NCBI GenBank assembly: GCA_902768785.1
Contig: CACXMM010000004.1
Coordinates: 35,998-99,997, forward strand
Source of the DNA: an uncultured Prevotellaceae bacterium
Lineage (GTDB): Bacteria > Bacteroidota > Bacteroidia > Bacteroidales > Bacteroidaceae
Length of the DNA stretch: 64,000 nucleotides
Direction of reading: 5' to 3'
Shown: positions 18,594 through 58,350 of the stretch, one piece after another
Position numbering within the stretch: position 1 is the stretch's first letter
Layout of the letters: the number at the start of each line of letters is the position of its first letter
Made by a program: the position numbers and the translations under genes
The notes under the pieces: model-generated
The model's input: only the letters and a program-made list of their open reading frames with translations
What the model was told of the DNA's origin: nothing
Database searches by the model: none

Positions 18594-19074
18594 ACTTCAA
18601 TTAACGCGAAAAGCGGGCATTTTGGGAACCAGCCACCCTTTTGGTCGAAAAAACGCAATTCTCACGAGGTTTGGTAAGTTGTTGATAATGAGCTCATTGT
18701 GAAAATATGTCATTTCTGACTTGAGAAAACGGCGTTTTTATGCTCTAAAAACATAGGTTTTAGGGGTCAAAAACACCGTTTTTAGGTGGTGAAAACATCG
18801 TTTTTGCGAAGTAAAAACAACGTTTTTGCGTGAAGAAATGTCATCTACGGGTAGTTCCGAACGGCGTTTACACCTGTTCCGACGGCACCTATCACTCATT
18901 CCGCCGTCGTCTATAGGGGTAAGGTGACGGCGGAACGACCCTTAGATGACGTCGGAAAGGGTGTAAGTAAAGGCTGGGACGAATGCAAGTAACCTTTGAT
19001 TGGGTTTAAAGTAGGCTTTACTTGGGCTTAAAGTAACCTTTACTTTGAATGAAATTAACCTTTACTTGCTAAAC
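18594..19074 (+). repeat. Dispersed intergenic element, copy A: conserved flank plus 22-bp-step array
   Basis: The first 130 bp (to 18724) resemble 58224-58350 on the opposite strand. From 18725 the DNA is ordered in 22-bp steps of a 15-bp unit plus a 7-bp spacer. Units at 18725, 18747, 18769, 18791 and 18813 are AAAAACnnnGTTTTT palindromes. From 18855 units are TTCCGACGNC-like, then inverted (18921, 18943). From 18965 to 19053 they are AAGTAACCTTTACTT-like. The element occupies most of the gap between convergent genes (isomerase and lipoprotein). No credible gene was found in it. Confidence 0.9.
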
Positions 19075-19182
19075 ATCCAATTAGCGTATTTTTATAATCC
19101 TTAATTTTTGACGAATAATCTTGACAATATCATGCTATCCATACCCCCAAAGAATGCCAAGACAAATCGCCTGCTAACGAAA

Positions 19183-20124
19183 TCAGTTGGTTAATTTCAG
19201 TTTTTTGAAGAAATATCCTGGGGCATCGTATGCCATACCGAAATCAAGGATCATCATGCCATCCTTGAACCAGTAGGTGCATTGCCGGCCATTGAGGTTG
19301 ATCTTGGTTTTAACCGTACCGTCATATTTGTTGGTTTCAGTACTAATGCTCTCGTAGGAATAGGAACCAGAATCCATAAAGGGTATCTTTTCCTTATTGA
19401 GGATCTGATTGACAACCTGCATGGTATGGTCCGGATTGAAAAAGACTGTGACTTCACCGGGTTGTACGTCATACATACCCCCAAATGAGAAGTCAGCCCT
19501 TACCAGATGCCATACGCCTTCGAGGGTTTGTGGATTTTCCTCGTATCCCTTTGCTTTGAGCTGAGAGTCATTAAACAGCAAGAAATAGTCATAATGGATA
19601 TTACTGCTAATCTTTCCTGCTTTTTGCAGTATCTCGTACATGCGCTGCATGCCCTTTTTCTGTTGGTCGGTGAGATCGCCCTCAATAACCTTTCCATCTT
19701 CACTGACACGTCGGTTTACCCTAAGAACATACTTTGATCCATTTATGTCAGTAAAACAATACTCGAATGTCAGACCCGAAGTGAGCATACTGGAATAGCT
19801 AGAGCTAAGCTTAGCTTCAAACAGTAAGCTTTTTCCAGAATAGAACTGGATGAGATGTTGCGTTGGTAGGGGATATGCTTTCGAGTCAATCCGCTCCGTA
19901 TTATTTACCTTGAACTCTCCTGTCTCGGGATTCACGGCAAGAATGTTGTCGAGCGTCAGCACATAGTCACTGGGGGTGATGTTACCGTTCTGTGTTCCTT
20001 CTGGTATGATGACAGCATACAGAGTGTTGGGTGAGTTGACCGCAGGTGTCTCGTCATCGCTGGAGCAAGCCGTAGAAAGACTAACGGCCAGCATTGTCAT
20101 GATAAATCCTTTTATTAGTTTCAT
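19183..20124 (-). CDS. Predicted lipoprotein of unknown function
   Basis: Starting at MKLIKGFIMT (20124) the product has 313 residues and a lipobox LSTAC with Cys20, followed by SSDDETPA, typical of Bacteroidota lipoproteins. The middle part has a charged helical stretch (DLTDQQKKGMQRMYEILQKA) and the C-terminal 100 residues read like a beta-rich lipocalin-like domain (LEGVWHLVRADFSFGG, PGEVTVFFNPDHTMQVV). I do not recognise the family with confidence. It stands alone between the repeat element and the ftsZ terminator. Confidence 0.8.
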   Translation of the reverse strand: MKLIKGFIMTMLAVSLSTACSSDDETPAVNSPNTLYAVIIPEGTQNGNITPSDYVLTLDNILAVNPETGEFKVNNTERIDSKAYPLPTQHLIQFYSGKSLLFEAKLSSSYSSMLTSGLTFEYCFTDINGSKYVLRVNRRVSEDGKVIEGDLTDQQKKGMQRMYEILQKAGKISSNIHYDYFLLFNDSQLKAKGYEENPQTLEGVWHLVRADFSFGGMYDVQPGEVTVFFNPDHTMQVVNQILNKEKIPFMDSGSYSYESISTETNKYDGTVKTKINLNGRQCTYWFKDGMMILDFGMAYDAPGYFFKKLKLTN

Positions 20125-20229
20125 ATCTGATATGATAAATGTTCTACTAATAAAAACACGATTACTCAGAAAACTTGCATGCACGTTCCGTTATTTAATA
20201 GTATTTAACAAATTTAAAGCTGATAGACT

Positions 20230-20271
20230 AAAACAATAAAACCGCCCCTTTCTCTCACGAGGAAGGAGCGG
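20230..20271 (-). terminator. Rho-independent terminator after ftsZ
   Basis: On the minus strand CCGCTCCTT pairs with AAGGGGCGG (one G-T pair), followed by a TTTTATTGTTTT tract. It closes the dcw cluster. Confidence 0.85.
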
Positions 20272-20309
20272 CAAGGTATTATGTTCTTATTAAATAATGA
20301 GTAGTCGGG

Positions 20310-21632
20310 TTATGCAAAGCGGATGGTGCCCTGGATGGGCTCTTTCTTCTCATCATCGTTGGCGGTGATATTGCCAGCTGCTTTGTTACGGATCTCATCG
20401 AGTACCTGACGGGTACGCTTGTAGGTGGGTGTCTGCTCTACATCTGAGATCACATCGTCGTTATCGAGGTCTTCCTGCCGGAAGATGAAGATATGAGGAC
20501 GACGCTTGTACTGACTGGTGGAGCCATCCTTGCCATAATAGCGGTTACGACGGTCGAGACGCTCTGCTGCTTTCTCCTCCTCAGCGGCAATACGGTCGGC
20601 CTCCTCCTGGGTGCGTTTGCCGAAGTGACTGCTCATGCCATCGACATCCTCTATGCCGAAGCCAGTGGCGAGGATCGTCACCTTCACCTTATCACCTAAT
20701 TCCGGATCAGTAGCCAGTCCCCATTTGATCTCAAAGTCGTTACCGAACTTCGCCATGAAGTCGTTCACGTCGTTCATCTCCTCCATCATCAGTCCTGTCT
20801 TGCTCTGCTTATCGCTGCAGAAGGAGATGCTTAACAGGATCTTCTTCGAGTTGAACACATCGTTATCGTTGAGGAGGGGAGAGTTCAGCGCATCGTCGAT
20901 GGCCTTCTTCACACGTCCTTCACCCTCGCCGTAGCCCGTGGACATGATAGCCACGCCACCATCCTTCAAGACTGTCTTCACATCATTGAAGTCGAGGTTG
21001 ATCAATCCGTGTACGGTGATGATCTCGGCAATTGACTTTGCCGCCACGCTCAGCGTGTCGTCGGCCTTTCCGAAAGCATCGAGCACGGTAAGCTCGGGAT
21101 AGATCTCGCGCAGTCGTTCGTTGTTGATCACCAGCAGGGCATCCACATGCTTCGACATCTCTTCCACACCGTCCAAGGCCTGGTCGATTTTCTTCGGACC
21201 CTCAAAGCGGAAGGGGATGGTAACGATACCCACGGTGAGGATACCTAACTCCTTACTAACGCGAGCGATGACAGGAGCGGCTCCTGTTCCCGTTCCACCA
21301 CCCATACCGGCGGTGATGAAGGCCATCTTCGTACCGTCGGAGAGCATGTTGCGTACATCCTCGATGCTCTCCTCGGCAGCCTGACGGGCTTTCTCGGGTT
21401 TGTTGCCCGCACCCAGGCCCTCTTTTCCTAACTGAAGGTGTACAGGCACAGGACTGTCATTGAGTGCCTGGTTGTCGGTGTTACACAACACGAAGGTCAC
21501 ATCGTGGATGCCCTCGCGATACATGTGGTTTACGGCATTGCCACCACCGCCGCCGACACCGATCACCTTAATGATACTATTCTCTTTCTCCGGCTCACCG
21601 AAATCTAATATATTAAACTTGTTATCGTCCAT
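20310..21632 (-). CDS. ftsZ: Cell division GTPase FtsZ
   Basis: FtsZ polymerises into the division ring. The 440-residue protein has the GTP-binding loops GVGGGGGNAVNHM near residue 26 and GMGGGTGTGAAPVIA near 118, the NTDNQAL loop, and LDFNDVKTVL with the synergy-loop Asp. The linker after about residue 335 is charged (TQEEADRIAAEEEKAAERLDRRNRYYG), and the C-terminus ends in PIQGTIRFA. It is the last gene of the dcw cluster, 51 bp after ftsA. Confidence 0.98.
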   Translation of the reverse strand: MDDNKFNILDFGEPEKENSIIKVIGVGGGGGNAVNHMYREGIHDVTFVLCNTDNQALNDSPVPVHLQLGKEGLGAGNKPEKARQAAEESIEDVRNMLSDGTKMAFITAGMGGGTGTGAAPVIARVSKELGILTVGIVTIPFRFEGPKKIDQALDGVEEMSKHVDALLVINNERLREIYPELTVLDAFGKADDTLSVAAKSIAEIITVHGLINLDFNDVKTVLKDGGVAIMSTGYGEGEGRVKKAIDDALNSPLLNDNDVFNSKKILLSISFCSDKQSKTGLMMEEMNDVNDFMAKFGNDFEIKWGLATDPELGDKVKVTILATGFGIEDVDGMSSHFGKRTQEEADRIAAEEEKAAERLDRRNRYYGKDGSTSQYKRRPHIFIFRQEDLDNDDVISDVEQTPTYKRTRQVLDEIRNKAAGNITANDDEKKEPIQGTIRFA

Positions 21633-21683
21633 GATCTTGAATATTTAATGATGAATGATTGGATTGAATAGGACACGTGAGGG

Positions 21684-23150
21684 TTATTCCTCTTCCGGCT
21701 CTGCGATCAGACTCTTGAAGAAACTCTTCAGCTTGCTGCCCGTCTTCTTCAGGCTGCTGTTCTTTTTCTTCTCCTCCTCTTCGGCAAGTCGTTTGGCCTC
21801 TGCCTCTTCCTCGCGGGCTTTCTTGGCTGCAGCCTCTGCCTCTTCCTCCTGCTTGCGCTTCTCCTCTTCGACCTTCTGTTTCTCTGCCTCGGTCTGTACC
21901 ACTCCAGGACCTAACTCATTGGGCTTACGGGGTTCGCGATGGATGTCGGTGGTGACGGCAGGTTTCTTCTCTCCGAACAGATCGCCGTTGGTGTCAACCT
22001 CAGCACCAGCACAGTTCATATCGCCCTTGGCCAATAGTCCCAGTACTGTGTTCATCATACCGTTGCGTGCGGCGATGAGCGGATCTTTGGCACTGATGCT
22101 CTGGGTGACGAACTTCGCGATCCGTATCTTGTCGATATGGGTATGGTTGCGGAAAGCGGTCTCGATGTTCTTCATGTTCGAGCCGCCACCTGTGAGGATG
22201 ATACCACCCAGCAGACGGTCGGCATACTCGGAGGGTACCTGATACCATACGTTTTCAATGATTTCCTCCATGCGACCCTCCACGATGGAGATGAACTCAC
22301 GACTCTTCACCGAACGGTCGGCATCGATGCTTAGTGACATATTGTTGTCGATTTCCCCGTTGTCGGTCCAGGCACTGCCGTATTTGAGCTTCATCTGCTC
22401 GGCGGCACTCTCCTCCATCTGGAGTGAGGCGATATCCTTGGTGATATTGTTGCTGCCTAAGGGGATCACGGCTAAGTGGCGCAGGATGTTCTTGTAATAC
22501 ACGCTGACGGTGGTAGTGTCGGCACCCATGTCAACGAGTGCGCATCCGGAACGCTTCTCTGCATCGGTGAGTACGCTGTCGGCCAGTGCCAGAGGTGCCA
22601 GATACATCTCTGCGATGGGCACGCCTGCGAGGTCGAAGCATTTATTGAGATTGCGGTAGAACATCTTCCGCCAGAGGATGTTGAGGAAATTTCCTTCCAG
22701 ACGGGCACATTGGATACCCACGGGATCCATCTGGTACTGGTTGTCAACCTTGTATTCCTGGGTGGCTGCATCGAGGATCTCCTGATCCTGATAGCTCATG
22801 TTCCGGTTCGCATCCATGAGCTCGTTCACCATCTCCTGTGTGACGATGGTGTCGGCAGCCAGGTTTTTCACAATGACATTCTTCACGCTTCGTATAGACT
22901 GACCCCCGACACCCACATACACCTGAGAGATGCTTGTCTTGAGGGTGGTGGTGAGCCGTTTCACAATGTTCGAGATACACTGCGCTGTTTTGTCGATGTT
23001 GTAAATCACTCCCTTGCGGATAAAGGTGGAAGAGTCTTCTGTTACCACGGCGAGCACAGAGATACTGCCGTCAAGATTCTTCTTGCCCGCGATACCGGTC
23101 ATCTTGGATGAGCCGAGTTCGATTGCTACGATGAAATCCTTTGCTGCCAT
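21684..23150 (-). CDS. ftsA: Cell division protein FtsA
   Basis: Actin-like protein that tethers FtsZ to the membrane. AIELGSSKMTGIAG at the N-terminus is the phosphate-1 loop, CALVDMGADTTTVSVY the second phosphate loop, and GIILTGGGSNMKNIETAF the adenosine motif. At 488 residues it is longer than E. coli FtsA because of a Glu/Lys/Ala-rich coiled-coil segment (about 425-470). The end GSKLKSFFKSLIAEPEEE could be the amphipathic membrane anchor. Confidence 0.96.
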   Translation of the reverse strand: MAAKDFIVAIELGSSKMTGIAGKKNLDGSISVLAVVTEDSSTFIRKGVIYNIDKTAQCISNIVKRLTTTLKTSISQVYVGVGGQSIRSVKNVIVKNLAADTIVTQEMVNELMDANRNMSYQDQEILDAATQEYKVDNQYQMDPVGIQCARLEGNFLNILWRKMFYRNLNKCFDLAGVPIAEMYLAPLALADSVLTDAEKRSGCALVDMGADTTTVSVYYKNILRHLAVIPLGSNNITKDIASLQMEESAAEQMKLKYGSAWTDNGEIDNNMSLSIDADRSVKSREFISIVEGRMEEIIENVWYQVPSEYADRLLGGIILTGGGSNMKNIETAFRNHTHIDKIRIAKFVTQSISAKDPLIAARNGMMNTVLGLLAKGDMNCAGAEVDTNGDLFGEKKPAVTTDIHREPRKPNELGPGVVQTEAEKQKVEEEKRKQEEEAEAAAKKAREEEAEAKRLAEEEEKKKNSSLKKTGSKLKSFFKSLIAEPEEE

Positions 23151-23153
23151 ACG

Positions 23154-24062
23154 CTATACTGATTTTTTGTTATTGTCTTGTTTGATGGAATCCTTCTTCT
23201 CTGTCGTCACCGCCGTGGAATCTTTCTTCTCTTCGGTCTTGATGACGGGTGGGGTATAAACCGGCATGGCTTTGACCGTCTTCTTACAGATAATCTGGTT
23301 GTCAAACTCCACGCTGATATAATGGTATTTGTTCCAGCCTGCTGCGTTCAGACCATAACGGTAGAACTTATCCAGCCGTTCCAGTTTCTTCATGACGTAG
23401 TCGGTGATGAGCTGTTTGCGTTTGACCTCATCCTTCGACTGTGGCAGATAGCCGATGAAGATAACGTGTTCACCCACACGGGGCACCAGTTCCACGCCCA
23501 GGTCGGGAAGGATATTGATCTGCACAATCTGGTTCTTCCAGAACTCACTGTCCATCAGTACTTCCGTGAGACAAGCCAGATAATGGCGTGCGAAATCCTT
23601 ATTGATATACCCTGTGGCGATGATTAGGTCGCTGGTGTATTTGGAGTTCGGCATGATGCCTCCCTCGTCGTCGAGGTAGTAGTCATCCCCTTTCACACTC
23701 ATGATCCGCACAACAGGCAGTCGCTGGGTGACGTTGACGCAGACATGTCCGTTCTGTGTCTTGTAACACTGTACGGTATTGACGAAGGAACTGGTCTTTA
23801 GCACCTCCTCGATGTCGCGTGGGTTGATGGCCTGCATGTGCTTCTCCAACGGATAGAGTTTCTTCTTCTCTAAGATCTTTTTGATCTCTTTTGCACTGAG
23901 GAATCCGTTGGTGTTCTCGTCTGCGATGTTGATGCTGACCTTGGTGCACAGCTTGGCGGTCTCGTCCGGTTTGTTGAACGAGGTCATGGCGAGTCCCAGA
24001 TAGACGGCGAGCACGACATCCAGGGTCACGATGAGGGCCTTTTTCCAATTGATGTGCATCAT
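23154..24062 (-). CDS. ftsQ: Cell division protein FtsQ
   Basis: A bitopic membrane protein of the divisome. The 302-residue product has a short cytoplasmic start, one membrane helix (ALIVTLDVVLAVYLGLAM), and a periplasmic FtsQ/POTRA part beginning VSINIADENTNGFLSAKEIKKIL. The C-terminus is a Lys/Thr/Asp-rich low-complexity tail. Its place between murC and ftsA is the standard order, with a 3-bp gap to ftsA. Confidence 0.92.
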   Translation of the reverse strand: MMHINWKKALIVTLDVVLAVYLGLAMTSFNKPDETAKLCTKVSINIADENTNGFLSAKEIKKILEKKKLYPLEKHMQAINPRDIEEVLKTSSFVNTVQCYKTQNGHVCVNVTQRLPVVRIMSVKGDDYYLDDEGGIMPNSKYTSDLIIATGYINKDFARHYLACLTEVLMDSEFWKNQIVQINILPDLGVELVPRVGEHVIFIGYLPQSKDEVKRKQLITDYVMKKLERLDKFYRYGLNAAGWNKYHYISVEFDNQIICKKTVKAMPVYTPPVIKTEEKKDSTAVTTEKKDSIKQDNNKKSV

Positions 24063-24072
24063 ATCTTGTTAT

Positions 24073-25452
24073 TTAGTATTTCTGCGAGAGGATCTTTTCA
24101 ATCTGCTCCACCTGATTATCGAGATCACCGGCACCTAACACGATCAGTACTTCGAAGTCATGGGCCTTCACAAAGTCGAGCACTTCGTCTTTGTGGATCA
24201 TCACCTTCTCGACGCCTTCCTTCAGGTTATCGTAGATGAGCTGTGAGGTGACACCGGGGATGGGCTCTTCACGGGCAGGGTAGATCTCGGTAAGCACCAC
24301 CTCGTCGAGCTGACTCAGACTCTCTGCGAAATCCTTGTAGAAATCGCGGGTGCGGGTATAGAGGTGGGGCTGGAAGATGGCTGTGATCTTCTTGTCCTTA
24401 TACAGTTCACGGATACTCCGTGCGCTTTGGTAGATCTCCTTCGGATGGTGGGCATAGTCACTCAGGAAGACGATCTTGTCGTTTTTCAGCTTGAAGTCGA
24501 AGCGGCGGTCAACACCCCGGTAGGTTTTCATGCCATAACGCAACTCCTCGGCATTGCATCCGCTGAGCTGGGCCATGGCCATAGCGGCGATACCGTTCTC
24601 GATGTTGATCGGCACAGGCTGTCCTAATTCCACGCCAAGGATATTCTCGATGGGGGAGATGAAGTCGAAGGAGATCTCCCCGTTCTCGATTTGGATGTTC
24701 TCCGCATGGAAATCACCACTGTTCAGACCGTACTCATAGACTCGTACGCCCTCTTGTACATCCGCTTTCATCTCCAGGTCCTGATGGATGATGAGAGTAC
24801 CTCCGGGCTGGATGAGTGTGGTATAGTGGCGGAAGCTCTCCAGATAAGCCTCCTTTGTTCCATAGATATCGAGGTGGTCGGGATCGGTGCTGGTGATCAC
24901 AGTCATCCATGGCCGCAGCCAGTGGAAACTCCTGTCGAACTCATCTGCTTCGATCACCACATACTCGCTCTCCTTGCTGAGGATATAGTTGGTGCCGTAA
25001 TTCTTGGAGATACCTCCCAGGAAGGCGTTGCAGTCGATATGGCTCTGGTGCATGATATGGGCACACATGGTGGATGTGGTGGTCTTACCGTGGGTTCCTG
25101 CCACACAGAGTCCTTTGTTCGAACGGGTGAGCATGCCCAGCACTTGTGCCCGTTTCTCCACATTGAAGTTGTTCTCGCGGAAATACACCAGTTCCTGATG
25201 CTCCTGCGGGATGGCTGGTGTGTAGATCACCAAGGTGTGTGCCACGTTCCGGCAGGAGTGGGGAATCTCCTCCACGTTCTCCTCGTAATGTATCAGGGCA
25301 CCCTCTTTCTCCATCTGTTTTGTCAGGGGGGTAGGGGTTTTGTCGTAACCGGCCACCACCAGTCCTTCCTTCAGGAAATAGCGGGCAATGGCACTCATGC
25401 CGATGCCACCGATGCCTACGAAATATACTGCTTTAATTTCTTTCAGTTCCAT
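24073..25452 (-). CDS. murC: UDP-N-acetylmuramate--L-alanine ligase
   Basis: This enzyme adds the first amino acid, L-Ala, to UDP-MurNAc using ATP. The 459-residue protein has the N-terminal GIGGIGMSAIARYFL motif, the ATP loop GTHGKTTTSTM near residue 110, and the C-terminal FQPHLYTRTRDF segment typical of MurC. The spacing in the dcw cluster is 10 bp to ftsQ. Confidence 0.98.
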   Translation of the reverse strand: MELKEIKAVYFVGIGGIGMSAIARYFLKEGLVVAGYDKTPTPLTKQMEKEGALIHYEENVEEIPHSCRNVAHTLVIYTPAIPQEHQELVYFRENNFNVEKRAQVLGMLTRSNKGLCVAGTHGKTTTSTMCAHIMHQSHIDCNAFLGGISKNYGTNYILSKESEYVVIEADEFDRSFHWLRPWMTVITSTDPDHLDIYGTKEAYLESFRHYTTLIQPGGTLIIHQDLEMKADVQEGVRVYEYGLNSGDFHAENIQIENGEISFDFISPIENILGVELGQPVPINIENGIAAMAMAQLSGCNAEELRYGMKTYRGVDRRFDFKLKNDKIVFLSDYAHHPKEIYQSARSIRELYKDKKITAIFQPHLYTRTRDFYKDFAESLSQLDEVVLTEIYPAREEPIPGVTSQLIYDNLKEGVEKVMIHKDEVLDFVKAHDFEVLIVLGAGDLDNQVEQIEKILSQKY

Positions 25453-25498
25453 TTGATTCTTTCCTATCTAAAATCGCTGTCATGAGACGGCTTCTTAT

Positions 25499-26617
25499 CT
25501 ATGCTTTGTCATGCCAAGCCAGTTTCACCACTTCATCGGCGATGATATCTGCCGAGTCGGGTAGTGCCAGCTTCAGGATATTTGTTCGTAAAGATGCCAG
25601 TTTCTCCTTGTCGTTTACCGTTTGGATGGCTAAGGTGATGACTTTTTGCGGCGCCTCTGCATCCTTCACATACAGGGCGGCATCTTTCTCCACCAAGGCC
25701 ATGGCATTCTTTGTCTGATGGTCTTCTGCCACATTGGGTGAGGGGACGAGGATGACTGGTGTACCCAACAGACAGAATTCGGAGATGCTGCTGGCTCCTG
25801 CCCTGCTGATGACGAGGTCGGCGGCTTTGTATGCCGCTCCCATATCGCTGATGAAGTCGAGGACTTTCAGCATGGGCATGTCGGTGTGGCTCTTCATCTG
25901 CTCCAGGATTTGACCGTGGTAGTATTTGCCTGTCTGCCAGATCACTTGGATACCGCTGTTCTTGATCTCATCCAGGTGCTGTAGGACGCTCTCGTTCACG
26001 GTTCTCGCACCTAACGATCCACCAACGATGAGAATCGTTCTCTTGGAAGGATCCAGTCCGAAACTCTTCACGGCTTCTTCCTTACTGATCGTGGTCTCTA
26101 ACAGAGCCTGACGTACGGGGTTGCCGGTCATGATGATCTTCTCTGCAGGGAAGAAACGCTCCATGTGCTCATAGGCCACACAGATTTTCTCCGCTTTCTT
26201 GGCCAGTAGCTTATTGGTGACGCCAGCGTACGAGTTCTGCTCCTGTATGAGACAGGGGATACCCATGGCAGCACATTGGTTTAGAGTGGGACCACTGGCA
26301 TAGCCACCAACGCCCACGGCGGCCATCGGGCGGAAGTCGCGGATGATTTTCTTGGCCATGCGCTGACTCTTCCATATCTTATAGAGCACCTTGACGTTCT
26401 TCAGGAGGTTCTTGCGGTCGAAACCACAGATGGGGAGACCTTTGATCTCGTAACCGGCGGCGGGCACACGTTGCATCTCCATTCTGCCCTCAGCACCTAC
26501 GAAAAGGATCTTTGCATCGGGATGCTTGACCTTGATGGCGTTGGCAATCGATACTGCGGGGAAGATATGTCCTCCCGTGCCGCCTCCGCTGATGATAATC
26601 CTCAATTCTTTTTCCAT
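25499..26617 (-). CDS. murG: Lipid II synthase (GlcNAc transferase) MurG
   Basis: MurG transfers GlcNAc to lipid I on the inner face of the membrane. The 372-residue protein carries GGGTGGHIFPAVSIA near residue 10, PTLNQCAAMGIPCLIQEQNSYAG in the middle, the donor-site region VISRAGASSISEFCLLG and LVPSPNVAEDHQTKNA. Confidence 0.98.
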   Translation of the reverse strand: MEKELRIIISGGGTGGHIFPAVSIANAIKVKHPDAKILFVGAEGRMEMQRVPAAGYEIKGLPICGFDRKNLLKNVKVLYKIWKSQRMAKKIIRDFRPMAAVGVGGYASGPTLNQCAAMGIPCLIQEQNSYAGVTNKLLAKKAEKICVAYEHMERFFPAEKIIMTGNPVRQALLETTISKEEAVKSFGLDPSKRTILIVGGSLGARTVNESVLQHLDEIKNSGIQVIWQTGKYYHGQILEQMKSHTDMPMLKVLDFISDMGAAYKAADLVISRAGASSISEFCLLGTPVILVPSPNVAEDHQTKNAMALVEKDAALYVKDAEAPQKVITLAIQTVNDKEKLASLRTNILKLALPDSADIIADEVVKLAWHDKA

Positions 26618-26638
26618 TTCCTTACCATATTTACGACA

Positions 26639-38473: not shown

Positions 38474-38598
38474 TGCATTTTTTGAGAAATCAATCTGCAC
38501 AACTTGTGCAAAGGGGTTGCACACTTTGTGCAGATGCCTTGCACACTTTGTGCAGAGGCTTTGCACTCTTTGTGCAACGGTCTTGCACAAATTCTTCT
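38474..38598. repeat. Array C: 15-bp palindromes at exact 22-bp steps (TGCACAnnnTGTGCA)
   Basis: Perfect 6-3-6 palindromes begin at 38496, 38518 and 38540; the one at 38562 has one mismatch; partial units at 38474 and 38584 keep the register. The 7-bp spacers (AAGGGGT, GATGCCT, GAGGCTT, ACGGTCT) differ. The array occupies the gap between glsB and the aldA promoter. No gene is present in 38463-38789. Confidence 0.92.
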
Positions 38599-43103: not shown

Positions 43104-43229
43104 ACAATAATTCATGATTCTGGGGTTTCTCTAACTGTTAAAAATACTTTCCATATTACTTTCTCGAAGAAAGTATGCTACTTTCACATGCTAAACAATA
43201 TAAATCCTTGGGGAAAACAATATATTTTC

Positions 43230-43262
43230 TTTGGGTAAATAATATATATTTCGTACCTTTGC
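43230..43262 (+). promoter_or_regulatory. Promoter of the dut operon
   Basis: TTTG (43230-43233), 20 bp, TACCTTTGC (43254-43262), with a leader of about 23 bases to dut. Confidence 0.85.
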
Positions 43263-43291: not shown

Positions 43292-43729
43292 ATGATAGAG
43301 ATAAAAGTAGTGAATAAAGGGCATCAGCAACTGCCTGCTTATGCCACACCACAAAGTGCGGGGATGGATCTCCGTGCCAACCTTGATGAACCAATAGTTT
43401 TACGGCCATTGGAACGTAAACTAATCAAGACAGGACTGTTCATCGCACTGCCCGAAGGGTATGAAGCACAGATCCGACCGCGTAGCGGACTTGCTTTGAA
43501 GCATGGTATAACCGTACTGAACACCCCAGGTACCATAGATGCTGATTACCGTGGTGAGATTGGAGTCTGTCTGATCAATCTCTCACAAGATGATTTTATC
43601 GTCAACGACGGTGAGCGCATCGCCCAGATGGTGATTGCCCGTCATGAGCAGGGTGATTTCATCGTTGTCAGTGAATTGGATGAGACGGAACGTGGCGCCG
43701 GTGGTTATGGTCATACGGGAGTGAAGTAG
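43292..43729 (+). CDS. dut: dUTP diphosphatase
   Basis: The trimeric dUTPase keeps uracil out of DNA and supplies dUMP. All five motifs are seen in 145 residues: [42 protein letters not shown] and [10 protein letters not shown]. It starts an operon with the TPR lipoprotein, DUF4292 lipoprotein and EnvC-like genes. Confidence 0.97.
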
Positions 43730-48246: not shown

Positions 48247-48254
48247 GCTTTCCC

Positions 48255-49322: not shown

Positions 49323-49341
49323 TGCCTTTCTTGTTTCTGTT

Positions 49342-49350
49342 GCAAAATTA
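49342..49350 (-). promoter_or_regulatory. -7 box of argE promoter
   Basis: TAATTTTGC on the minus strand, about 20 bp before the argE ATG; no clear TTTG box. Confidence 0.5.
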
Positions 49351-49434
49351 CGAATTAATTTACTGAAAAAGGGCATACTGTAGCAAAAAGTTGCAGTGAT
49401 GAGAGGAAGAAAACCCATAATTCTTACTGATTTC

Positions 49435-49466
49435 TTCGTTAGTTCGGAAAAAAGATGTATCTTTGC
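49435..49466 (+). promoter_or_regulatory. Promoter of the acyl-CoA ligase-prfB operon
   Basis: TATCTTTGC (49458-49466) is preceded after 19 bp by TTCG (49435-49438), a weak match to TTTG. Confidence 0.6.
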
Positions 49467-49489
49467 ATAAGTTAAATAGATCGAAGCCT

Positions 49490-51298: not shown

Positions 51299-52417
51299 AT
51301 GATAACACAAGATCAGTTGAAGGATGTCTTAGATCGTGCAGACAAACTGAAGCACTATCTGAAGATTGACGAGAAACAGTTGGAATACGAGGAGGAGGAT
51401 CTGCGAACACAAGCCCCCGATTTCTGGGAGGATCCCAAACGGGCTCAGGTGCAGATGAAGAAAGTGAAGGACATCAAGCGATGGCTTGATGGCTATAAGG
51501 AGGTGCGTACTTTGGCAGATGAGCTCCAGCTGGCCTTTGATTTCTACCACGATGAGATGGTTTCTGAGGAGGAGATCGATGAAGACTATGCCAAGGCCAT
51601 TGCCGCCATCGAGGACCTGGAACTGAAAAACATGCTCCGGCAAAAGGAGGATCCGATGGACTGTGTATTGAAGATCAATTCAGGAGCGGGAGGAACAGAG
51701 AGTCAGGACTGGGCTTCGATGCTGATGCGTATGTATATGCGTTGGGCTGAGGCTCACGGACATAAGGTGACTGTTAGTAACTTACAAGATGGTGATGAGG
51801 CTGGTATCAAGAGCGTCACCATGGAGATTGAAGGAGGCGAATATGCCTATGGCTATCTGAAAAGTGAGAACGGTGTGCACCGTTTGGTACGAGTATCCCC
51901 TTTCAATGCCCAAGGTAAACGCATGACAAGTTTTGCCTCTGTCTTTGTGAGTCCTCTCGTTGACGATACCATTGAGGTGTATGTGGATCCGGCCAAACTT
52001 TCCTGGGATACCTTCCGCAGCTCAGGTGCTGGCGGACAGAATGTGAACAAGGTGGAGTCGGGTGTGCGGTTGCGTTATTGGTACACCGATCCTGATACGG
52101 GTGAGGAAGAAGAGATCCTCATTGAGAATACAGAGACTCGCGACCAGCCCAAGAACAAAGAAAAAGCCATGTTGCTGTTGAAGTCTCAGCTCTACGACCG
52201 TGCCATGAAGAAGCGTTTGGAGGCACAGGCAAAGATCGAGGCAGGGAAGAAGAAGATCGAGTGGGGCAGTCAGATACGCAGTTATGTGTTTGATGACCGT
52301 CGCGTGAAAGATCACCGTACCAATTATCAGACCACTGATGTGGATGGGGTGATGGACGGAAAGATTGATGGTTTCATCAAAGCCTACCTGATGGAGTTCC
52401 CTGTGAACGAAGAATGA
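51299..52417 (+). CDS. prfB: Peptide chain release factor 2, without programmed frameshift
   Basis: RF2 reads UGA and UAA. The 372 residues are in one frame: the region where E. coli RF2 has its UGA frameshift site (LRGYL/DYD) reads LKHYLKIDEKQ here without interruption. The codon-recognition tripeptide SPF is in RVSPFNAQG and the catalytic GGQ in SSGAGGQNVNKVESGVRL. It is contiguous with the acyl-CoA ligase gene. Confidence 0.97.
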   Translation: MITQDQLKDVLDRADKLKHYLKIDEKQLEYEEEDLRTQAPDFWEDPKRAQVQMKKVKDIKRWLDGYKEVRTLADELQLAFDFYHDEMVSEEEIDEDYAKAIAAIEDLELKNMLRQKEDPMDCVLKINSGAGGTESQDWASMLMRMYMRWAEAHGHKVTVSNLQDGDEAGIKSVTMEIEGGEYAYGYLKSENGVHRLVRVSPFNAQGKRMTSFASVFVSPLVDDTIEVYVDPAKLSWDTFRSSGAGGQNVNKVESGVRLRYWYTDPDTGEEEEILIENTETRDQPKNKEKAMLLLKSQLYDRAMKKRLEAQAKIEAGKKKIEWGSQIRSYVFDDRRVKDHRTNYQTTDVDGVMDGKIDGFIKAYLMEFPVNEE

Positions 52418-52483
52418 GGAGGATGGTCGCTATTTCGTTATCCCTTAATTACAATGTTACGAGATTACAAAGAAATCATAAAG

Positions 52484-52530
52484 TTCAAAGCTCAAAGTTC
52501 AAAGTTCAAAGATCAAAGTTCAAAGTTAAA
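52484..52530. repeat. 7-bp tandem array (AAAGTTC)
   Basis: AAAGTTC, AAAGCTC, AAAGTTC, AAAGTTC, AAAGATC, AAAGTTC, AAAGTTA with a 7-bp step. An almost identical array, including the preceding AAATCAT, occurs at 55120-55163. Confidence 0.9.
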
Positions 52531-52541
52531 TATTTATTAGT

Positions 52542-52685
52542 ATGAGTCAGAAAAGAAAAGCGCAGCGCGCACGCCATGAGGCACAGGTAGAGAAAAAAGG
52601 TAAGGATGTGGTGATGTGGATTATCATTGCATTGATTGTCTTCGCTCTTGTCACTATGGGCATCACGATTTATGGCATGATGTAA
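52542..52685 (+). CDS. Small single-span membrane protein, 47 residues
   Basis: Begins MSQKRKAQRARHEAQVEKK, a basic stretch, followed by one hydrophobic helix (VVMWIIIALIVFALVTMGI) and YGMM. The stop and the CYTH start overlap as TAATG. Good coding shape and tight coupling support a real gene; the function is unknown. It fits a positive-inside tail with the basic end in the cytoplasm. Confidence 0.75.
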   Translation: MSQKRKAQRARHEAQVEKKGKDVVMWIIIALIVFALVTMGITIYGMM

Positions 52686-53206
52686 TGAGCGGTTTCGAGA
52701 TTGAACGCAAGTTCCTGGTGCGTGGCGAAGGCTATCGTGAACAGGCGACGTGCAGCAGCCGCATCCAACAAGGTTATATCTGTAGTGGTCACGGGCGGAC
52801 AGTCCGTGTCCGTATCCGTGACAACTATGGGTATCTCACCATCAAAGGCCCTGCTGGTGAAGAAGGACTGAAACGCTATGAGTTTGAGAAAGAGATTACG
52901 TTGGAGGAGGCACAGCAGCTGATGAAACTCTGTGAGCCTGGGGTGATTGACAAGACGCGCTATCTGGTGAAGAGTCCTGACGGCATCCATACCTTCGAGG
53001 TGGATGAGTTCTATGGCGACAATGCCGGTCTGGTGATGGCAGAGGTGGAGCTGGGCAGTGAGGATGAACCTTACGAAAAGCCTGATTTCATCGGGGATGA
53101 GGTGACGGGTGACCGTCGTTTCTACAATTCCCACATGCGCAAGTTCCCCTTCATCGTCTGGCGTGGTACCATACCCAAAGCGTTCCGACACCTAACATTA
53201 GAGTAA
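52685..53206 (+). CDS. CYTH domain protein (triphosphate tunnel metalloenzyme)
   Basis: A 173-residue protein beginning MSGFEIERKFLV, with the ExExK signature EIERK. Further tunnel residues are in RVRIRDNYGYLTIKG, LKRYEFEKEI, DKTRYLV, FEVDEFYG and MAEVELGSEDE. CYTH/TTM enzymes hydrolyse inorganic tripolyphosphate or thiamine triphosphate. The gene overlaps the end of the opposite-strand VanZ gene by 56 bp. Confidence 0.92.
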   Translation: MSGFEIERKFLVRGEGYREQATCSSRIQQGYICSGHGRTVRVRIRDNYGYLTIKGPAGEEGLKRYEFEKEITLEEAQQLMKLCEPGVIDKTRYLVKSPDGIHTFEVDEFYGDNAGLVMAEVELGSEDEPYEKPDFIGDEVTGDRRFYNSHMRKFPFIVWRGTIPKAFRHLTLE

Positions 53207-53561
53207 CACCGATGCTGTTGGCGAGGAAATCAAGCCATTCGCCACTACGCCTTCCTCCTGTGCAATAGGCTTGGGCCAACTCAATAAGACCGCTCATGAG
53301 GATAGGTGCAAGCCAGCCCCATCCGATCATCTTTTTCCAGGAGAAGCTGCTGGGGTGTGCCTGCAGGGGATGATGGCGCAGATATTCTGTCCAGATCACT
53401 CCGCACGTCACGAAATACATGGCGATGTGTACCCACTTGTCTATCAAGGTAACACCGCTCAACGGAGTCTCTGGAACGGGCATCAGACAAAGAACCCAAA
53501 TCGTTGCTATGAAGAAACAGGATACAGGGTATTTCCTAACCAAATGCAGGATATTATTCAT
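53151..53561 (-). CDS. VanZ-like family membrane protein
   Basis: The 136-residue protein has four hydrophobic segments, with LCLMPVPETP, DKWVHIAMYFVTCGV and ELAQAYCTGGRRSGEWLDFLANSIGVTLML, which are the recurrent VanZ-like motifs. VanZ gives low-level teicoplanin resistance in enterococci; in Bacteroidota the role is unknown. Its last 56 bp are antisense to the CYTH gene. Confidence 0.85.
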   Translation of the reverse strand: MNNILHLVRKYPVSCFFIATIWVLCLMPVPETPLSGVTLIDKWVHIAMYFVTCGVIWTEYLRHHPLQAHPSSFSWKKMIGWGWLAPILMSGLIELAQAYCTGGRRSGEWLDFLANSIGVTLMLGVGTLWVWYHARR

Positions 53562-53580
53562 TTTTGCTTTCTATTTTGGT

Positions 53581-53610
53581 GCAAAAGTACAATTATTTTT
53601 ATAATTTTGC
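53581..53610. promoter_or_regulatory. Closely packed divergent promoters (VanZ / NSS symporter)
   Basis: TACTTTTGC on the minus strand (53589-53581) and TAATTTTGC on the plus strand (53602-53610) are only 12 bp apart. A TTTG at 53575-53578 could serve the plus-strand box with a 23-bp gap. Confidence 0.6.
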
Positions 53611-53631
53611 AGCGTGAAACAGGAAAAAAAC

Positions 53632-54996
53632 ATGTCAAATTCATTAGAGAGAGGGAATTTCGGTACGAAGTTGGGCGTAATCCTTGCTACAGCAGGCGGC
53701 GCGGTCGGCTTGGGAAACGTATGGCGATTCCCCTATGTCACAGGTCAGAATGGCGGTGCAGCCTTTATCCTTATTTATTTTTTATGTGTATTAGTCATGG
53801 GAATCCCCGTGATGCTCTGTGAGTTCCTGATAGGTCGTCATGCCCAAACCAATACGGCGCGTGCCTATAGTAAGTTGTCTAATGGAACGCCCTGGAAATG
53901 GGTAGGCTACATGGGCGTACTCACTGCGGCACTGATCATTGGCTTTTACGGTGTAGTGTCGGGATGGACATTACAGTATGTGTTGGCGTCTGCTACTGGT
54001 CAGTTGCATGGTACACCGGCAGAGATTAAGGAATATTTCTCAGAATTCTCCACCAATCCCATCAAACCCATTATGTGGATGGCCTTGTTGGTAGGCATGA
54101 CTCATTTCGTGATAGTTCACGGCATTCAGGATGGCATAGAGAAAGCATCGAAGATCATGATGCCTCTGCTGTTCATCCTGCTCCTCGTCCTGGTGGGTTG
54201 CTCGCTGATGTTACCGAATGCCATGGAGGGAGTGGAGTTCCTGTTGAAACCCGATTTCTCCAAGGTAACGGGTAAGACCTTCTTAGAGGCATTAGGTCAG
54301 TCGTTCTTTTCGTTGAGTATCGCCATGGGATGTCTGTGTACCTACGCCAGCTATTTCAAACGTGAAACGAATCTGGTGGGTACGGCGTTCCAGATCTCTA
54401 TCATTGACTCTTTCGTGGCCATCCTTGCCGGACTGATCATCTTCCCTGCTGCCATGTCTGTGGGAGTCCAGCCGGATAGCGGTCCGTCACTGATCTTCAT
54501 CACTTTGCCGAATGTGTTCGAGCAGGCCTTTGGCTCCATACCCGTTGTGCAATATGTCGTGTCGTTGGCATTTTACATACTGCTCTCCATCGCGGCCCTT
54601 ACCTCCAACATCTCCTTGCATGAGGTATCCACGTCGTTCCTGAGTGAGGAACTGCGTGTGGGAAGGCGTGAGGCAGCGACGATGGTGTCCATCATGTGTG
54701 TGATTGTGGGTGCCGTATGTTCGTTGTCGTTAGGCAACTGGTCATGGGCACAGCTCCATGGGATGCCGGTATTCGATTTCCTCGACTGGTTTACGGCCAA
54801 CATCTGTCTGCCGTTGGGTGGCTTCTTCACCTGTCTCTTTGTGGGATGGTATGTGGAGCATCGTGTAATCCGCAATGAGATCACGAACTGGGGGACGATG
54901 AACTATGGCTTCTTCCACCTTTTTGTATTTGTGGTCAAATACATTTGTCCGCTGTTCATCCTCTTTATCTTCCTGCATCAAATAGGATGGGTGTAG
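53632..54996 (+). CDS. Sodium-dependent NSS (neurotransmitter-type) symporter 1
   Basis: From the ATG at 53632 the protein has 454 residues and 11-12 membrane helices. VILATAGGAVGLGNVWRFPYVTGQNGGAAF is the unwound helix-1 signature with the Na+/substrate site. SFFSLSIAMGCLCTYASYF (helix 6) and AALTSNISLHEV (helix 8) also fit. Bacterial NSS proteins import amino acids or related amines with Na+. It is followed by a paralogue. Confidence 0.93.
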   Translation: MSNSLERGNFGTKLGVILATAGGAVGLGNVWRFPYVTGQNGGAAFILIYFLCVLVMGIPVMLCEFLIGRHAQTNTARAYSKLSNGTPWKWVGYMGVLTAALIIGFYGVVSGWTLQYVLASATGQLHGTPAEIKEYFSEFSTNPIKPIMWMALLVGMTHFVIVHGIQDGIEKASKIMMPLLFILLLVLVGCSLMLPNAMEGVEFLLKPDFSKVTGKTFLEALGQSFFSLSIAMGCLCTYASYFKRETNLVGTAFQISIIDSFVAILAGLIIFPAAMSVGVQPDSGPSLIFITLPNVFEQAFGSIPVVQYVVSLAFYILLSIAALTSNISLHEVSTSFLSEELRVGRREAATMVSIMCVIVGAVCSLSLGNWSWAQLHGMPVFDFLDWFTANICLPLGGFFTCLFVGWYVEHRVIRNEITNWGTMNYGFFHLFVFVVKYICPLFILFIFLHQIGWV

Positions 54997-54997
54997 A

Positions 54998-55167
54998 GAA
55001 GCCCACCCCGACCCTCCCAAAGGGAAGAGGAGCCCACCCCAGCCCTCCCAAAGGGAGGGAGATAGGAGGAAGGAGGAAGGAGGAAGGAGAAAGGAGACAG
55101 GAGACAGGAGGAAGGAGAAATCATAAAGTTCAAAGCTCAAAGTTCAAAGATCAAAGTTCAAAGTATA
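54998..55167. repeat. Compound repeat linker between the two NSS genes
   Basis: Two copies of a 29-31-bp unit (AGCCCACCCC(G/A)(A/G)CCCTCCC onward, ending AAAGGGA) start at 55000 and 55031; each can fold because CCCTCCC faces GGGAGGG. They are followed by a purine-rich 7-bp array (AGGAGGA type, 55065-55119) and a 7-bp AAAGTTC array (55126-55163) that repeats 52484-52530. Confidence 0.85.
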
Positions 55168-56520
55168 ATGGATAGAGGATCATTTGCATCAAGGATGGGT
55201 ATTATCCTGGCAACAGCGGGATCGGCCGTCGGACTTGGGAACGTATGGCGTTTCCCATACATGACTGGTCAGAACGGGGGCGCTGCCTTTATCCTGCTTT
55301 ATTTTGCCTGTGTCTTCCTCTTGGGCATCCCTGGGATGATCAGTGAGTTCATCGTGGGGCGCCATGGAGCCACGAATGCCGCGAGAGCCTACGATATCCT
55401 GTCACGAGGTAAGCCTTGGAAGATTGTGGGCTACCTCGGCATCCTCACTTCCACCATCATCCTTGGCTTCTATGCCGTGGTGGCGGGTTGGTGCCTGGAA
55501 TATCTCTTTGCCTCTGTGGCAGGACAGCTGCGGGGGGATGCTGCCTATGTGCAGACCTATTTCCAGTCATTCTCTTCTGATCCGCTGAAACCCTGTCTGT
55601 GGGCCGTTGCCTTTATTGTCATCACCCATCTCGTCGTGGTGCGTGGCATCCGCAACGGGATTGAGCGTGCATCGAAATGGTTGATGCCTGCCTTACTGCT
55701 GTTGCTGCTCATTATCGTGGTGGCCTCGTGCCTGCTACCCGGTGCTGACAAGGGCATCGAGTTCCTGCTGAAGCCCGATTTCTCCAAGCTCAGCGGTAGC
55801 GTGTTCTTAGAGGCACTCGGACAGGCATTCTTCTCTCTGAGTCTCGGTACGGCATGTCTTTGTACCTATGCTTCTTATTTCAGTAAGGAAACGAATCTTA
55901 CGCGTTCGGCAGTACAGATTGCTCTTCTCGACTCGATTATTGCGGTGATGGCAGGACTGATGATCTTCCCTGCGGCCTTCTCCGTGGGTGTGACTCCTGA
56001 TGCCGGACCCTCATTGATCTTCATTACCTTGCCGAATGTGTTCCAACAAGCGTTTGCAGCAGCACCGCTGGTGGGGTATGTCATCTCCGTGATGTTCTAT
56101 GCCCTGTTGGTATTTGCCGCCCTCACCTCCACCATCTCCATGCACGAGATAGGTACTGCTTTCTTCACTGAGGAACTTCATGCTCCCAGAAGCAGGGCGG
56201 CATGGATCCTCACCACCGTGTGCAGCATCATCGCCGTATTCTGCTCTTTGTCATTGGGCGCCTGTCCTGATATCCGCCTACAGGGAACCGATCTGCTCAA
56301 TTTCTGTGATAAGCTCACGGCACAGTTCCTATTGCCCATGGGTGCATTCCTCACTTGTCTGTTTGTGGGATGGTATGTTCCCAAGAGATTGGTGCGCGAT
56401 GAGTTTACCAATCAGGGTGCGTTGCATGGGAGGGCGTTCCCGCTTTATCTCTTCATCGTGCGCTTTATCTGTCCTTTGTGCATCCTCCTGATCTTTCTCC
56501 ATCAGATGGGAGTGATCTGA
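55168..56520 (+). CDS. Sodium-dependent NSS symporter 2
   Basis: The 450-residue paralogue of the preceding gene has the same motifs: LATAGSAVGLGNVWRFPYMTGQNGG, AFFSLSLGTACLCTYASYFSKETNL and AALTSTISMHEIGTAFFTEEL. The copies are similar throughout but clearly diverged, so the tandem duplication is old. Substrates may differ. Confidence 0.93.
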   Translation: MDRGSFASRMGIILATAGSAVGLGNVWRFPYMTGQNGGAAFILLYFACVFLLGIPGMISEFIVGRHGATNAARAYDILSRGKPWKIVGYLGILTSTIILGFYAVVAGWCLEYLFASVAGQLRGDAAYVQTYFQSFSSDPLKPCLWAVAFIVITHLVVVRGIRNGIERASKWLMPALLLLLLIIVVASCLLPGADKGIEFLLKPDFSKLSGSVFLEALGQAFFSLSLGTACLCTYASYFSKETNLTRSAVQIALLDSIIAVMAGLMIFPAAFSVGVTPDAGPSLIFITLPNVFQQAFAAAPLVGYVISVMFYALLVFAALTSTISMHEIGTAFFTEELHAPRSRAAWILTTVCSIIAVFCSLSLGACPDIRLQGTDLLNFCDKLTAQFLLPMGAFLTCLFVGWYVPKRLVRDEFTNQGALHGRAFPLYLFIVRFICPLCILLIFLHQMGVI

Positions 56521-56567
56521 ACGGTGACCTCCCTTACTCGCTGAATACTATATCAATACTGAATACT

Positions 56568-57527
56568 ATGAAACTGAAAGAATTCTTCTACTTACAGAAA
56601 TCCGACCGCCAAGTGCTCCTGGTGCTGTCGTGTGTGATCATCATCGCTCTCACCTTATTATATATAATAGGGGGACAAAAGGAAACGACAACTCCGTTGG
56701 ACCATCATACGGGTGACAGCTTGAACACTGTCGCCCATACTGGAACAATGGCCTATGCAGATGACAGTGAGGACAATAGCACGGAAATCCAGTCTCCAAG
56801 ACATCTGTTCCCTTTCGATCCCAATACTGCCGACAGCACCCAGCTGCTCCAGTTAGGTCTTCGTCCCTGGCAGGTGAGGAATATCTATAAGTATCGCGCT
56901 AAAGGGGGCGTGTATCGTCAGCCTTCCGATTTTGCACAGCTCTACGGACTGACCGTTAAACAATATCGGGCACTGGAGCCTTATATCCGCATCTCATCCG
57001 ACTACCTTCCTGCTTCCTCTCTGTTTCCGTCGGGAAAACAACGGATGATGACTTCCACAGACACTCGCTACGACAATCATAACAGGCATCTGGCAGAAAC
57101 GAAACGTGACTCTCTTGCCTATTCTCCCAAACTCCGTCCTGGTGAGACCATCCTCTTAAACAAGGCGGATACCAATGAACTGAAGCGGGTGCCTGGCATC
57201 GGAAGCTATTACGCCCGCTCCATTATCCGCTATGGACAACGACTGGGGGGCTACCATCGTGTCGAACAACTGCGGGAAATCAGCGGCTTCCCTGAAGAGG
57301 CCTTGTCTTACTTCAAAGTATCGAGTCCCGCCGTACGACAGCTGAATGTCAATACATCCACCCTTGAGGAACTGCGCAAACATCCGTACTGCAACTTCTA
57401 TCAGGCGCGTGCCATCATTGACTACCGCCGCCTGCATGGTCCTCTCCACAGCTTAGACGACCTGAAACTGCTGAAGGAGTTCCCCCCAGCAGCGATACAA
57501 CGGCTCAAACCCTACGTGGAGTTTTAG
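56568..57527 (+). CDS. Helix-hairpin-helix (ComEA-like) protein with membrane anchor
   Basis: From MKLKEFFYLQKSD the product has 319 residues. One membrane helix (VLLVLSCVIIIALTLLYIIGG) is followed by a linker and three HhH-like modules: FDPNTADSTQLLQLGLRPWQ, LNKADTNELKRVPGIGSYYA, and LNVNTSTLEELRKHPYCNFYQA. ComEA-type proteins bind DNA during uptake. The frame upstream overlaps the NSS gene and is rejected. Confidence 0.85.
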   Translation: MKLKEFFYLQKSDRQVLLVLSCVIIIALTLLYIIGGQKETTTPLDHHTGDSLNTVAHTGTMAYADDSEDNSTEIQSPRHLFPFDPNTADSTQLLQLGLRPWQVRNIYKYRAKGGVYRQPSDFAQLYGLTVKQYRALEPYIRISSDYLPASSLFPSGKQRMMTSTDTRYDNHNRHLAETKRDSLAYSPKLRPGETILLNKADTNELKRVPGIGSYYARSIIRYGQRLGGYHRVEQLREISGFPEEALSYFKVSSPAVRQLNVNTSTLEELRKHPYCNFYQARAIIDYRRLHGPLHSLDDLKLLKEFPPAAIQRLKPYVEF

Positions 57528-57680
57528 GAGGTGGCTTCTTTTATGATTCTCTGCTAACTCCGTTAACTCTGTGTGATTGTCAAAGATATTCATAAAAAAT
57601 TAAGACTTGCAAAAGTTCTCTAATTGGAAGAAGGGGAACGACTGGAGTGTACGGAAATGTCCAAAAGGGGCGTTTTGTGC

Positions 57681-58350
57681 AAGTAAAGGCTGATTGGATT
57701 CAAAGTAAAGGTTACTTTGCATACAAGTAAAGGTTACTTCAAACCCAAGTAAAGGTTACTTTAAACCCAAGTAAAGGTTACTTGCATTCGTTCCAGACGT
57801 TACTTACACCCTTTCCGACGTCATCTAAGGGTCGTTCCGCCGTCACTTTACCCCCTATAGATGACGTCGGAATGAGTGATAGATGCCGTCGGAACAGGTG
57901 ATAACGCCGTTCGGAACAACCCTTAGATGACGCTCCTTCGAAAATGCATGGTTTTTACTTTGGTAGGGTTCTTGGGGTCGCCTTCGGCGAGAAATCCAAC
58001 AAAATCTAAACAAAATCTTACAAATTTCTGTGCTATTGATTTGTTTTTTGGGTATAGATTTTGTTTGATTTTGGATAGATTTTGTAAGATTTCTGCCCGT
58101 AAGGGCATCCTAAGACAGAAATTATAGTCCTTTTGCTTCACAAAAAACAGTGTTTTCCCCACCTAAAAACGGCGTTTTTGACCCCCAAAACCTATGTTTT
58201 TGGAGCCTAAAAACGCCGTTTTCGCAAGTGAAAAATGACGGATTTTCACAATGCGCTCAATATCAACAACTTACCCAACCCCGCGAGAATTGCGTTTTTT
58301 CGAGCGAAAGGACAGCTGCTTCCCCAAATGCCCTCTTTTTGCGTTAAACG
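57681..58350 (-). repeat. Dispersed intergenic element, copy B: inverted relative to copy A, with an insertion
   Basis: Read on the minus strand it follows copy A. Plus-strand units at 57681, 57703, 57725, 57747, 57769 are AAGTAAAGGTTACTT-like palindromes; 57791, 57813, 57835 are TTCCGACGTCATCTA-like; 57858, 57880, 57902, 57924 are the same unit inverted; 58143, 58165, 58187, 58209 are AAAAACnnnGTTTTT. All steps are 22 bp within blocks. About 200 bp (57940-58140) absent from copy A holds a large imperfect hairpin bounded by TCGCCTTCGGCGA and TGCCCGTAAGGGCA. The remaining 57528-57680 shows nothing recognisable. Confidence 0.9.

Follow-up and report, generated by a model that had tools for sequence, protein, structure and literature searches.

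We report that a 64,000-nucleotide stretch from an uncultured Prevotellaceae bacterium (assembly GCA_902768785.1, contig CACXMM010000004.1, positions 35,998 to 99,997; hereafter the window) holds, at five places, arrays of short palindromes spaced at 22 bp, and that the same step occurs with unrelated units in its 3.41-Mb genome (99.88% complete; here labelled G000) and in two other genomes of the genus, G003 and G042. The palindromes of the window have two 6-bp arms around a 3-bp centre (6-3-6), and this 15-bp unit together with a 7-bp spacer gives the 22-bp period; arrays A, B and C, for which a preliminary description of the window had claimed this 15+7 geometry, are present where it placed them, some of the units being imperfect. 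The reading that we prefer, tentatively and at slightly less than an even chance, is that the arrays are evenly phased dyad sites for a putative DNA-binding protein, carried by elements resembling BrickBuilt, a miniature inverted-repeat transposable element (MITE). With the same reserve, we regard it as plausible, if short of probable, that they belong to a class of intergenic arrays with dyads every 22 bp, i.e. about two helix turns, members of which we found in several species of a single genus. A period that is common to several species without a common sequence points to a physical ruler, which could be a protein, an enzyme that makes duplications or a requirement for helical phasing.

Period 22 in the window, its genome and the nearest named relative

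We scanned for odd-centred 6-3-6 palindromes irrespective of their sequence, with at least five of the six pairs matched and in runs of at least three. The window gave five runs at period 22, against a mean of 0.02 and a maximum of one in 100 dinucleotide shuffles; runs recorded at 33 and 44 are the same arrays read at half or double step, and no 6-3-6 run was seen at any other period from 15 to 44. When all six pairs were demanded, two of the five period-22 runs were left. The scan of 464 kb of G000 returned 18 runs at 22, six at 33 and three at 44 (the latter two being the same arrays re-read), and zero or one at every other period between 15 and 45, the single runs falling at 16, 17, 35 and 45. 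Even-centred palindromes in the same 464 kb had no peak at period 22 (two runs at 22).

The nearest named relative that we met is Prevotella sp. UBA3294, with several flanking proteins 90-98% identical, and the genus name is taken from it. Its 323 kb, mostly picked for arrays or composite elements (see below), had 14 runs at 22 and zero or one at the other basic periods. Period 22 is the only period enriched for odd-centred palindrome runs in G000 and UBA3294.

The 22-bp step in other genomes of the genus

In 19 other genomes of the genus, 591 kb in total, the strict scan found one 6-3-6 run at period 22, in G003. The unit of that run, AAGARRGSCTYTCTT, belongs to a genome-wide family, forms 15+7 arrays and its letters are unrelated to those of A, B and C; tandem pairs of it were found 127 times forward and 124 times in reverse in the G003 genome with at most three mismatches, and 66 and 63 times with at most two, the reversed-pattern control giving none at either limit. 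G042 has several distinct 22-bp units, and one of these, TTATACA-N4-TGTATAA-N4 (7-4-7 + 4), matches the genome 68 times on each strand (none in the control). Additional palindromic 22-bp units were seen in G042, G060, G061 and G075.

Tandem repeats were also surveyed in about 1.0 Mb from 17 other same-genus genomes, G012 (675 bases) and G071 (1 kb) being left out. Period 22, with 36 intergenic rows, is the commonest among periods 12-60, followed by 14 (17 rows), 16 (14) and 23 (12); periods below 12, e.g. 7, outnumber it overall. With overlaps removed and at least two whole units required per row, 33 period-22 arrays remained, in nine of the 17 genomes and ten of them in G042. Compared with column-permuted controls, 11/33 are palindromic at p ≤ 0.05 and 7/33 at p ≤ 0.01 (13/33 and 7/33 in a re-run with new permutations), while the corresponding figures for the remaining periods in the 15-30 range are 4/58 and 0/58 in a set that includes four rows from other families. 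The internal splits are 6-3-6+7 and 7-4-7+4 and, by eye, also 5-6-5+6 and 6-5-6+5. Since the split varies among families, 22 bp is the constant feature, and the wider rule appears to be the 22-bp step, of which 15+7 is the version of G000 that is common to G003. Other families of the order, sampled over 76 kb, gave no 22-bp array and 50 kb of E. coli gave one 21-bp array, both samples being too small to confine the class to the genus.

The preliminary description had proposed that A, B and C share a geometry and not their letters, that 15+7 might be coincidence if unit and spacer lengths varied elsewhere in the genome, and that a scan for 6-3-6 palindromes at 22 bp of any sequence would be informative. 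The first idea gains the G003 family and loses part of its basis, as A and B belong to one element (see below). The 15+7 rule holds in G000 as far as it was scanned, but fails across species, as in G042, and the scan gives a peak in G000 but a single run in the relatives.

Arms, spacers and dispersal of the C arrays

Array C of the window (38496..38592, no strand assigned) has four TGCACA-N3-TGTGCA units, the last with TGCACT, and a terminal half-site TGCACAAA, and contains four arm-N7-arm repeats. Each strand of the G000 genome has 101 pairs of this unit (at most two mismatches; reversed-pattern control 0), and C is a dispersed element separate from the composite that carries A and B. The C arrays were counted in 848 kb of G000, 384 kb of which had been picked for known arrays; a pair count of 166 units includes spacer-centred pseudo-units and was not used. 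The 24 arrays in these stretches share a strict form, i.e. a half-site, three or four full units and a half-site, with four arm-N7-arm repeats in 21 and five in three. Isolate SUG1619 has three such repeats in 13 of 14 arrays, found by a two-full-unit pattern that shorter arrays would escape, and the arrays of UBA3294 are looser (four or five repeats in 12/16). The site number per C array is fixed within species, and the arms are near-invariant and the spacers variable. Specifically, the arms in G000 hold 1.8-2.0 bits per position and the spacers 0.2-0.9 bits, computed on units with at most one arm mismatch.

As these units were pre-selected, arm constancy was re-examined with loose limits. 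Among the 25 chains thus obtained all 12 arm letters are intact in 69/78 interior units, most end units are half-sites and none of the chains consists of degenerate units alone. The orthologous arrays C2:9069 (G000) and L065 (UBA3294) differ at 1/48 arm, 4/12 centre and 6/21 spacer positions. This recheck, together with the renewed permutations, strengthens the constraint on the C arms and narrows the breadth of the palindrome excess, which lies mostly in G042; our overall estimate stays as it was.

Array presence differs between close species. The array at 38496 is absent from the orthologous place in UBA3294; conversely, among six UBA3294 loci that could be placed in G000 by both neighbours, G000 has an array clearly at L065 and probably at L072, and none at L056, L067, L070 and L074 (the remaining loci were unplaceable in the G000 stretches or lie at rearrangements). 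Moreover, flanks of about 80 bp are common to seven of the nine aligned UBA3294 C arrays, and ends like terminal inverted repeats (TIRs), TTTCGCTTGTTTCA / TGAAACAAACGAAA, were found at two UBA3294 places (L076 = L228, and L085), with lengths of 239 and 267. Such data would be expected if the arrays were transposase-binding repeats in BrickBuilt-like MITEs, with 22 bp as a transposase-family footprint and no gain to the host, and BrickBuilt is indeed described as a MITE with 23-nt tandem repeats (PMC4596501). We nevertheless consider this unlikely: the TIR-like pair does not occur in 848 kb of G000, where the C-array flanks have scattered homology only; the loci that differ in presence between G000 and UBA3294 have no clean empty site with a target duplication, whole intergenic stretches being different; and no cognate transposase is known, PF01797 alone having been searched. 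Furthermore, dispersed copies have kept their arms next to variable spacers, which suggests that the arms remained under constraint once the copies had spread.

In the G000 sequence that was read, four C-like units stand alone; considered as marks of an autonomous parent, they look like chance or off-phase array readings. Matches to the C pattern in Paracoccus and Tateyamaria (L058, L066, L079 and L089; 4/41 stretches) are by eye a GC-rich TGTGCA repeat of about 11 bp and probably unrelated; these loci were part of the flank comparison and the geometry scan, where they gave no run of three, and stand outside the array-repeat counts. The exact C and B tandem patterns had no match in viral contigs.

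A composite element carrying the A and B arrays

The A and B blocks of the window represent a single composite element, present twice in inverted orientation, and are therefore not independent witnesses of a shared geometry. Copy 1 (18560..19127, minus strand; about 570 bp) consists of tail, A array, middle block and B array without the central module, and copy 2 (57578..58386, plus strand; about 810 bp) is a full composite; their ends were read by eye from a 16-copy alignment and the sequence. The component blocks, which have no assigned strand, are as follows. In copy 1, array A (18725..18827) has five [AG]AAAAC-N3-GTTTTT units with 7-bp spacers and one imperfect pair in three of the five, the middle block (18835..18986), recognised by inverted repeat and sequence, consists of two halves in inverted orientation with GACGNCGGAA-type repeats, and array B (18987..19068) has four AAGTAACCTTTACTT-type units, of which one is perfect and three are imperfect, again with 7-bp spacers. 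In copy 2, array B (57681..57783) has AAGTAAAGGTTACTT units of the AAGTAA..TTACTT type, four perfect and one decayed, and is followed by the middle block (57791..57930), which lies on its 22-bp grid, by the central inverted-repeat module (57976..58115), with TCGCCTTCGGCGA- and TGCCCGTAAGGGCA-type hairpins and AAAATCT-type inverted repeats, and by array A (58143..58223), with four AAAA[AC]C-N3-GTTTT[TC] units.

A search with copy 2 found 96 matching pieces in G000, 16 near full length and the others partial, and no match among plasmids. Alignment of the 16 gave the order left end, AAGTAA array, middle block, central inverted-repeat module, AAAAAC array and tail; the element is non-coding, and its left and right ends have similar GTCAAGATNATTC sequences and resemble direct repeats. 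The hairpins of the central module (L131-L146) switch between TCGCCTTCGGCGA and TGCCCTTACGGGCA types copy by copy, as if swapped as whole units.

In 14/16 copies the 22-bp grid set by the AAGTAA array continues through the middle block; the AAAAAC array follows it loosely, at 0 or 21 modulo 22 in 11/16. The length of the AAGTAA array varies among composites by whole 22-bp steps, and this variation, like the constant step of unrelated units in several genomes, could be explained by an enzyme with a 22-bp ruler that duplicates palindromes, through staggered nicking and fill-in or hairpin slippage, the arrays being functionless. We find this explanation very improbable, since the C arrays have a fixed site number per species and differing neighbour spacers, which is unlike simple duplication, and their arms are intact in dispersed copies.

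UBA3294 has copy 1 at the orthologous site. No arm letter of the AAAAAC array differs there, its five differences being confined to centres and spacers; the last AAGTAA unit differs at three arm letters. The conservation of copy 1 may stem from a shared recombination tract, which is conceivable because the neighbouring gene is equally conserved (97.6%).

Several G000 contigs start (C9, C12, C18, C28, C40, C43, C44 and C48) or end (C5, C6, C10, C13 and C39) no more than about 120 bp from a composite match, and composites therefore seem to break the assembly and may account for assembly breaks in G000.

Location relative to genes

Genes were taken as long open reading frames (ORFs) chosen by a simple rule, without curated annotation; five of the 24 C arrays lie inside ORFs judged spurious and were excluded from the position count. 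The 19 scorable C arrays comprise nine in convergent, ten in co-oriented and none in divergent gaps, compared with 67/206 divergent gaps in the background, and seven of the ten co-oriented arrays are closer to the 3' end of the upstream gene. The 33 arrays with 22- or 44-bp period in other genomes include 12 convergent and 16 co-oriented cases, 15 of the latter being closer to the upstream gene's 3' end. Arrays tend to lie mostly 3' of genes.

Wobble pairs and folding

The location 3' of genes would also suit arrays that are transcribed as hairpins in 3' untranslated regions, where they would end transcription or protect the mRNA. Such an RNA role accords with the strongly negative folding scores of the whole composite (z of about -9 to -13 for either strand, from three of the 16 copies) and with its wobble mismatches, which in the minus orientation are mostly G.T (26 G.T to 3 A.C in array A, 12 to 1 in array B; counted by array position, nine cells are G.T and one, in a decayed unit, A.C). 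In 11/16 copies, however, the G.U orientation is not the read-through direction of the left gene, and folding energy is similar on both strands, with minus lower in 10/16, so that the attempt to choose a strand by folding energy gave no clear strand. Moreover, the C arms are near-invariant instead of covarying, and Rfam at the gathering threshold gave two tRNAs and no other family in the window. In G003, 28 of the 43 units with at least two wobble mismatches mix both wobble senses, the unit pattern having allowed purine/pyrimidine ambiguity at some positions, and duplex recognition fits this better than a single RNA strand. The evidence for DNA versus RNA is divided, and as a whole we judge the RNA explanation to be improbable. 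A long hairpin between neighbouring G003 units was also considered and rejected, the complementarity being 11.66 of 15 compared with a mean of 11.69 for shuffled neighbours.

Interpretation

If the arrays are sites for a DNA-binding protein, each would present, on one face of the helix, a row of sites for a putative dimeric protein, the dimers of which could jointly occupy adjacent dyads at gene ends; possible roles would be those of a chromatin boundary, a silencer or a transcription roadblock. The recognised letters would change among lineages while the spacing is kept, and the arrays would spread as passengers of MITE-like elements. A bolder form, which we think rather doubtful, sees geometry-defined chromosomal arrays whose letters are replaced between species and whose 22-bp step and within-species site number are kept, read by a fast-evolving putative DNA-binding family that would mark or insulate gene ends.

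Several observations weigh against phased protein-binding sites. In the strict scan of 591 kb from 19 genomes the other periods give zero to three runs (three at 15) and there is no general peak at 22. Six of the seven most strongly palindromic survey arrays (p ≤ 0.01) belong to G042, and with this genome left out 6/23 are palindromic at p ≤ 0.05 and 1/23 at p ≤ 0.01; 22 of the 33 have no significant palindromy (p > 0.05). Many B units of UBA3294 lack a dyad, in a search that itself demanded the 22-bp step. As to location, five of the 33 arrays in other genomes lie in divergent gaps, the 16 composites have no clear position bias (7 ++, 4 +-, 3 -+ and 2 --), and a 3' bias can arise if insertions into promoters are selected against. 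The one-orientation G.T bias of the composite would fit an RNA hairpin, and no binding protein for the arrays was identified, no phyletic-pattern search having been made. The 22-bp rule is directly testable in cultured relatives and would offer a route to its reader.

Other repeats in the window

An AT-rich 22-bp tandem repeat at 43192-43252, immediately on the 5' side of an ORF at 43292, has an unclear dyad and was left out of the counts. At 54995-55061 lies a 31-bp minisatellite (AGAGAAGCCCACCCCAACCCTCCCAAAGGGA); a like sequence is present in UBA3294 (G116), both at several further places and as a longer array after the orthologue of the gene whose end lies at 57527. Finally, internal tandem repeats of about 258 bp (59930-60546) lie within a 1062-aa ORF (58549-61737), which may encode a surface protein with repeats.

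Comparison with known repeat systems

The preliminary description had set the arrays apart from clustered regularly interspaced short palindromic repeats (CRISPR), repetitive extragenic palindromes (REPs) and iterons. CRISPR arrays have unique spacers of roughly 25-45 nt between their repeats; the present arrays are likewise made of repeats and spacers, but the spacers are 7 nt, differ between adjacent units in the C arrays and are partly common to several arrays. Iterons are clustered at a replication origin beside a rep gene and share with our arrays the tandem sites at a fixed step, whereas here many short arrays are dispersed downstream of ordinary genes, the C family with its 101 tandem-pair matches per strand lying at many gene ends. 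In bacterial interspersed mosaic elements (BIMEs) and REPINs, palindromes occur partly in dimers or arrays; the rigid 22-bp step distinguishes the present arrays from these and from REPs.

REPs are, as described, dispersed intergenic palindromes too (PMC3733652). The Y1/RAYT transposase profile (PF01797, Y1_Tnp) had no match in G000 and was positive in 5/14 control genomes, and a REP/RAYT origin was rejected as far as PF01797 can tell. To that extent, with a 99.88% complete genome, the claim that the arrays are unlike known kinds stands for REPs, but the preliminary description left a close kind, BrickBuilt, unnamed.

In the open-access literature (subscription papers and preprints were outside the scope) we found no report of such arrays, the related elements being BrickBuilt, PINSR and REP/REPIN. 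PINSR is described as a 188-bp repeat of the Prevotella intermedia/nigrescens group with 177 and 184 copies, clade-restricted, probably non-coding, intergenic and without TIR (PMC4755523). It resembles our arrays, by description only, in being an amplified intergenic repeat in the same genus, but is presented as a single 188-bp sequence; as a precedent it shows that clade-restricted, probably non-coding intergenic repeats were already known in the genus.

BrickBuilt of Porphyromonas gingivalis has, according to the main text of its description, imperfect 23-nt tandem repeats between a leader and a tail, 19 elements in one genome, a length partly set by the repeats, and TIRs similar to those of insertion sequence (IS) elements (PMC4596501). 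It is likewise a non-coding intergenic element with short tandem repeats from the same bacterial order, and the arrays and composites studied here have MITE-like traits, being non-coding, short, multi-copy and intergenic. The step, however, is 23 instead of 22 bp, the word 'palindrom' is absent from that main text, TIRs of this type were not seen around the G000 C arrays, and here the units differ by family and species while the step is constant. We class the arrays with a known kind, that of minisatellite-bearing intergenic elements, and their new feature is a common step without a common sequence.

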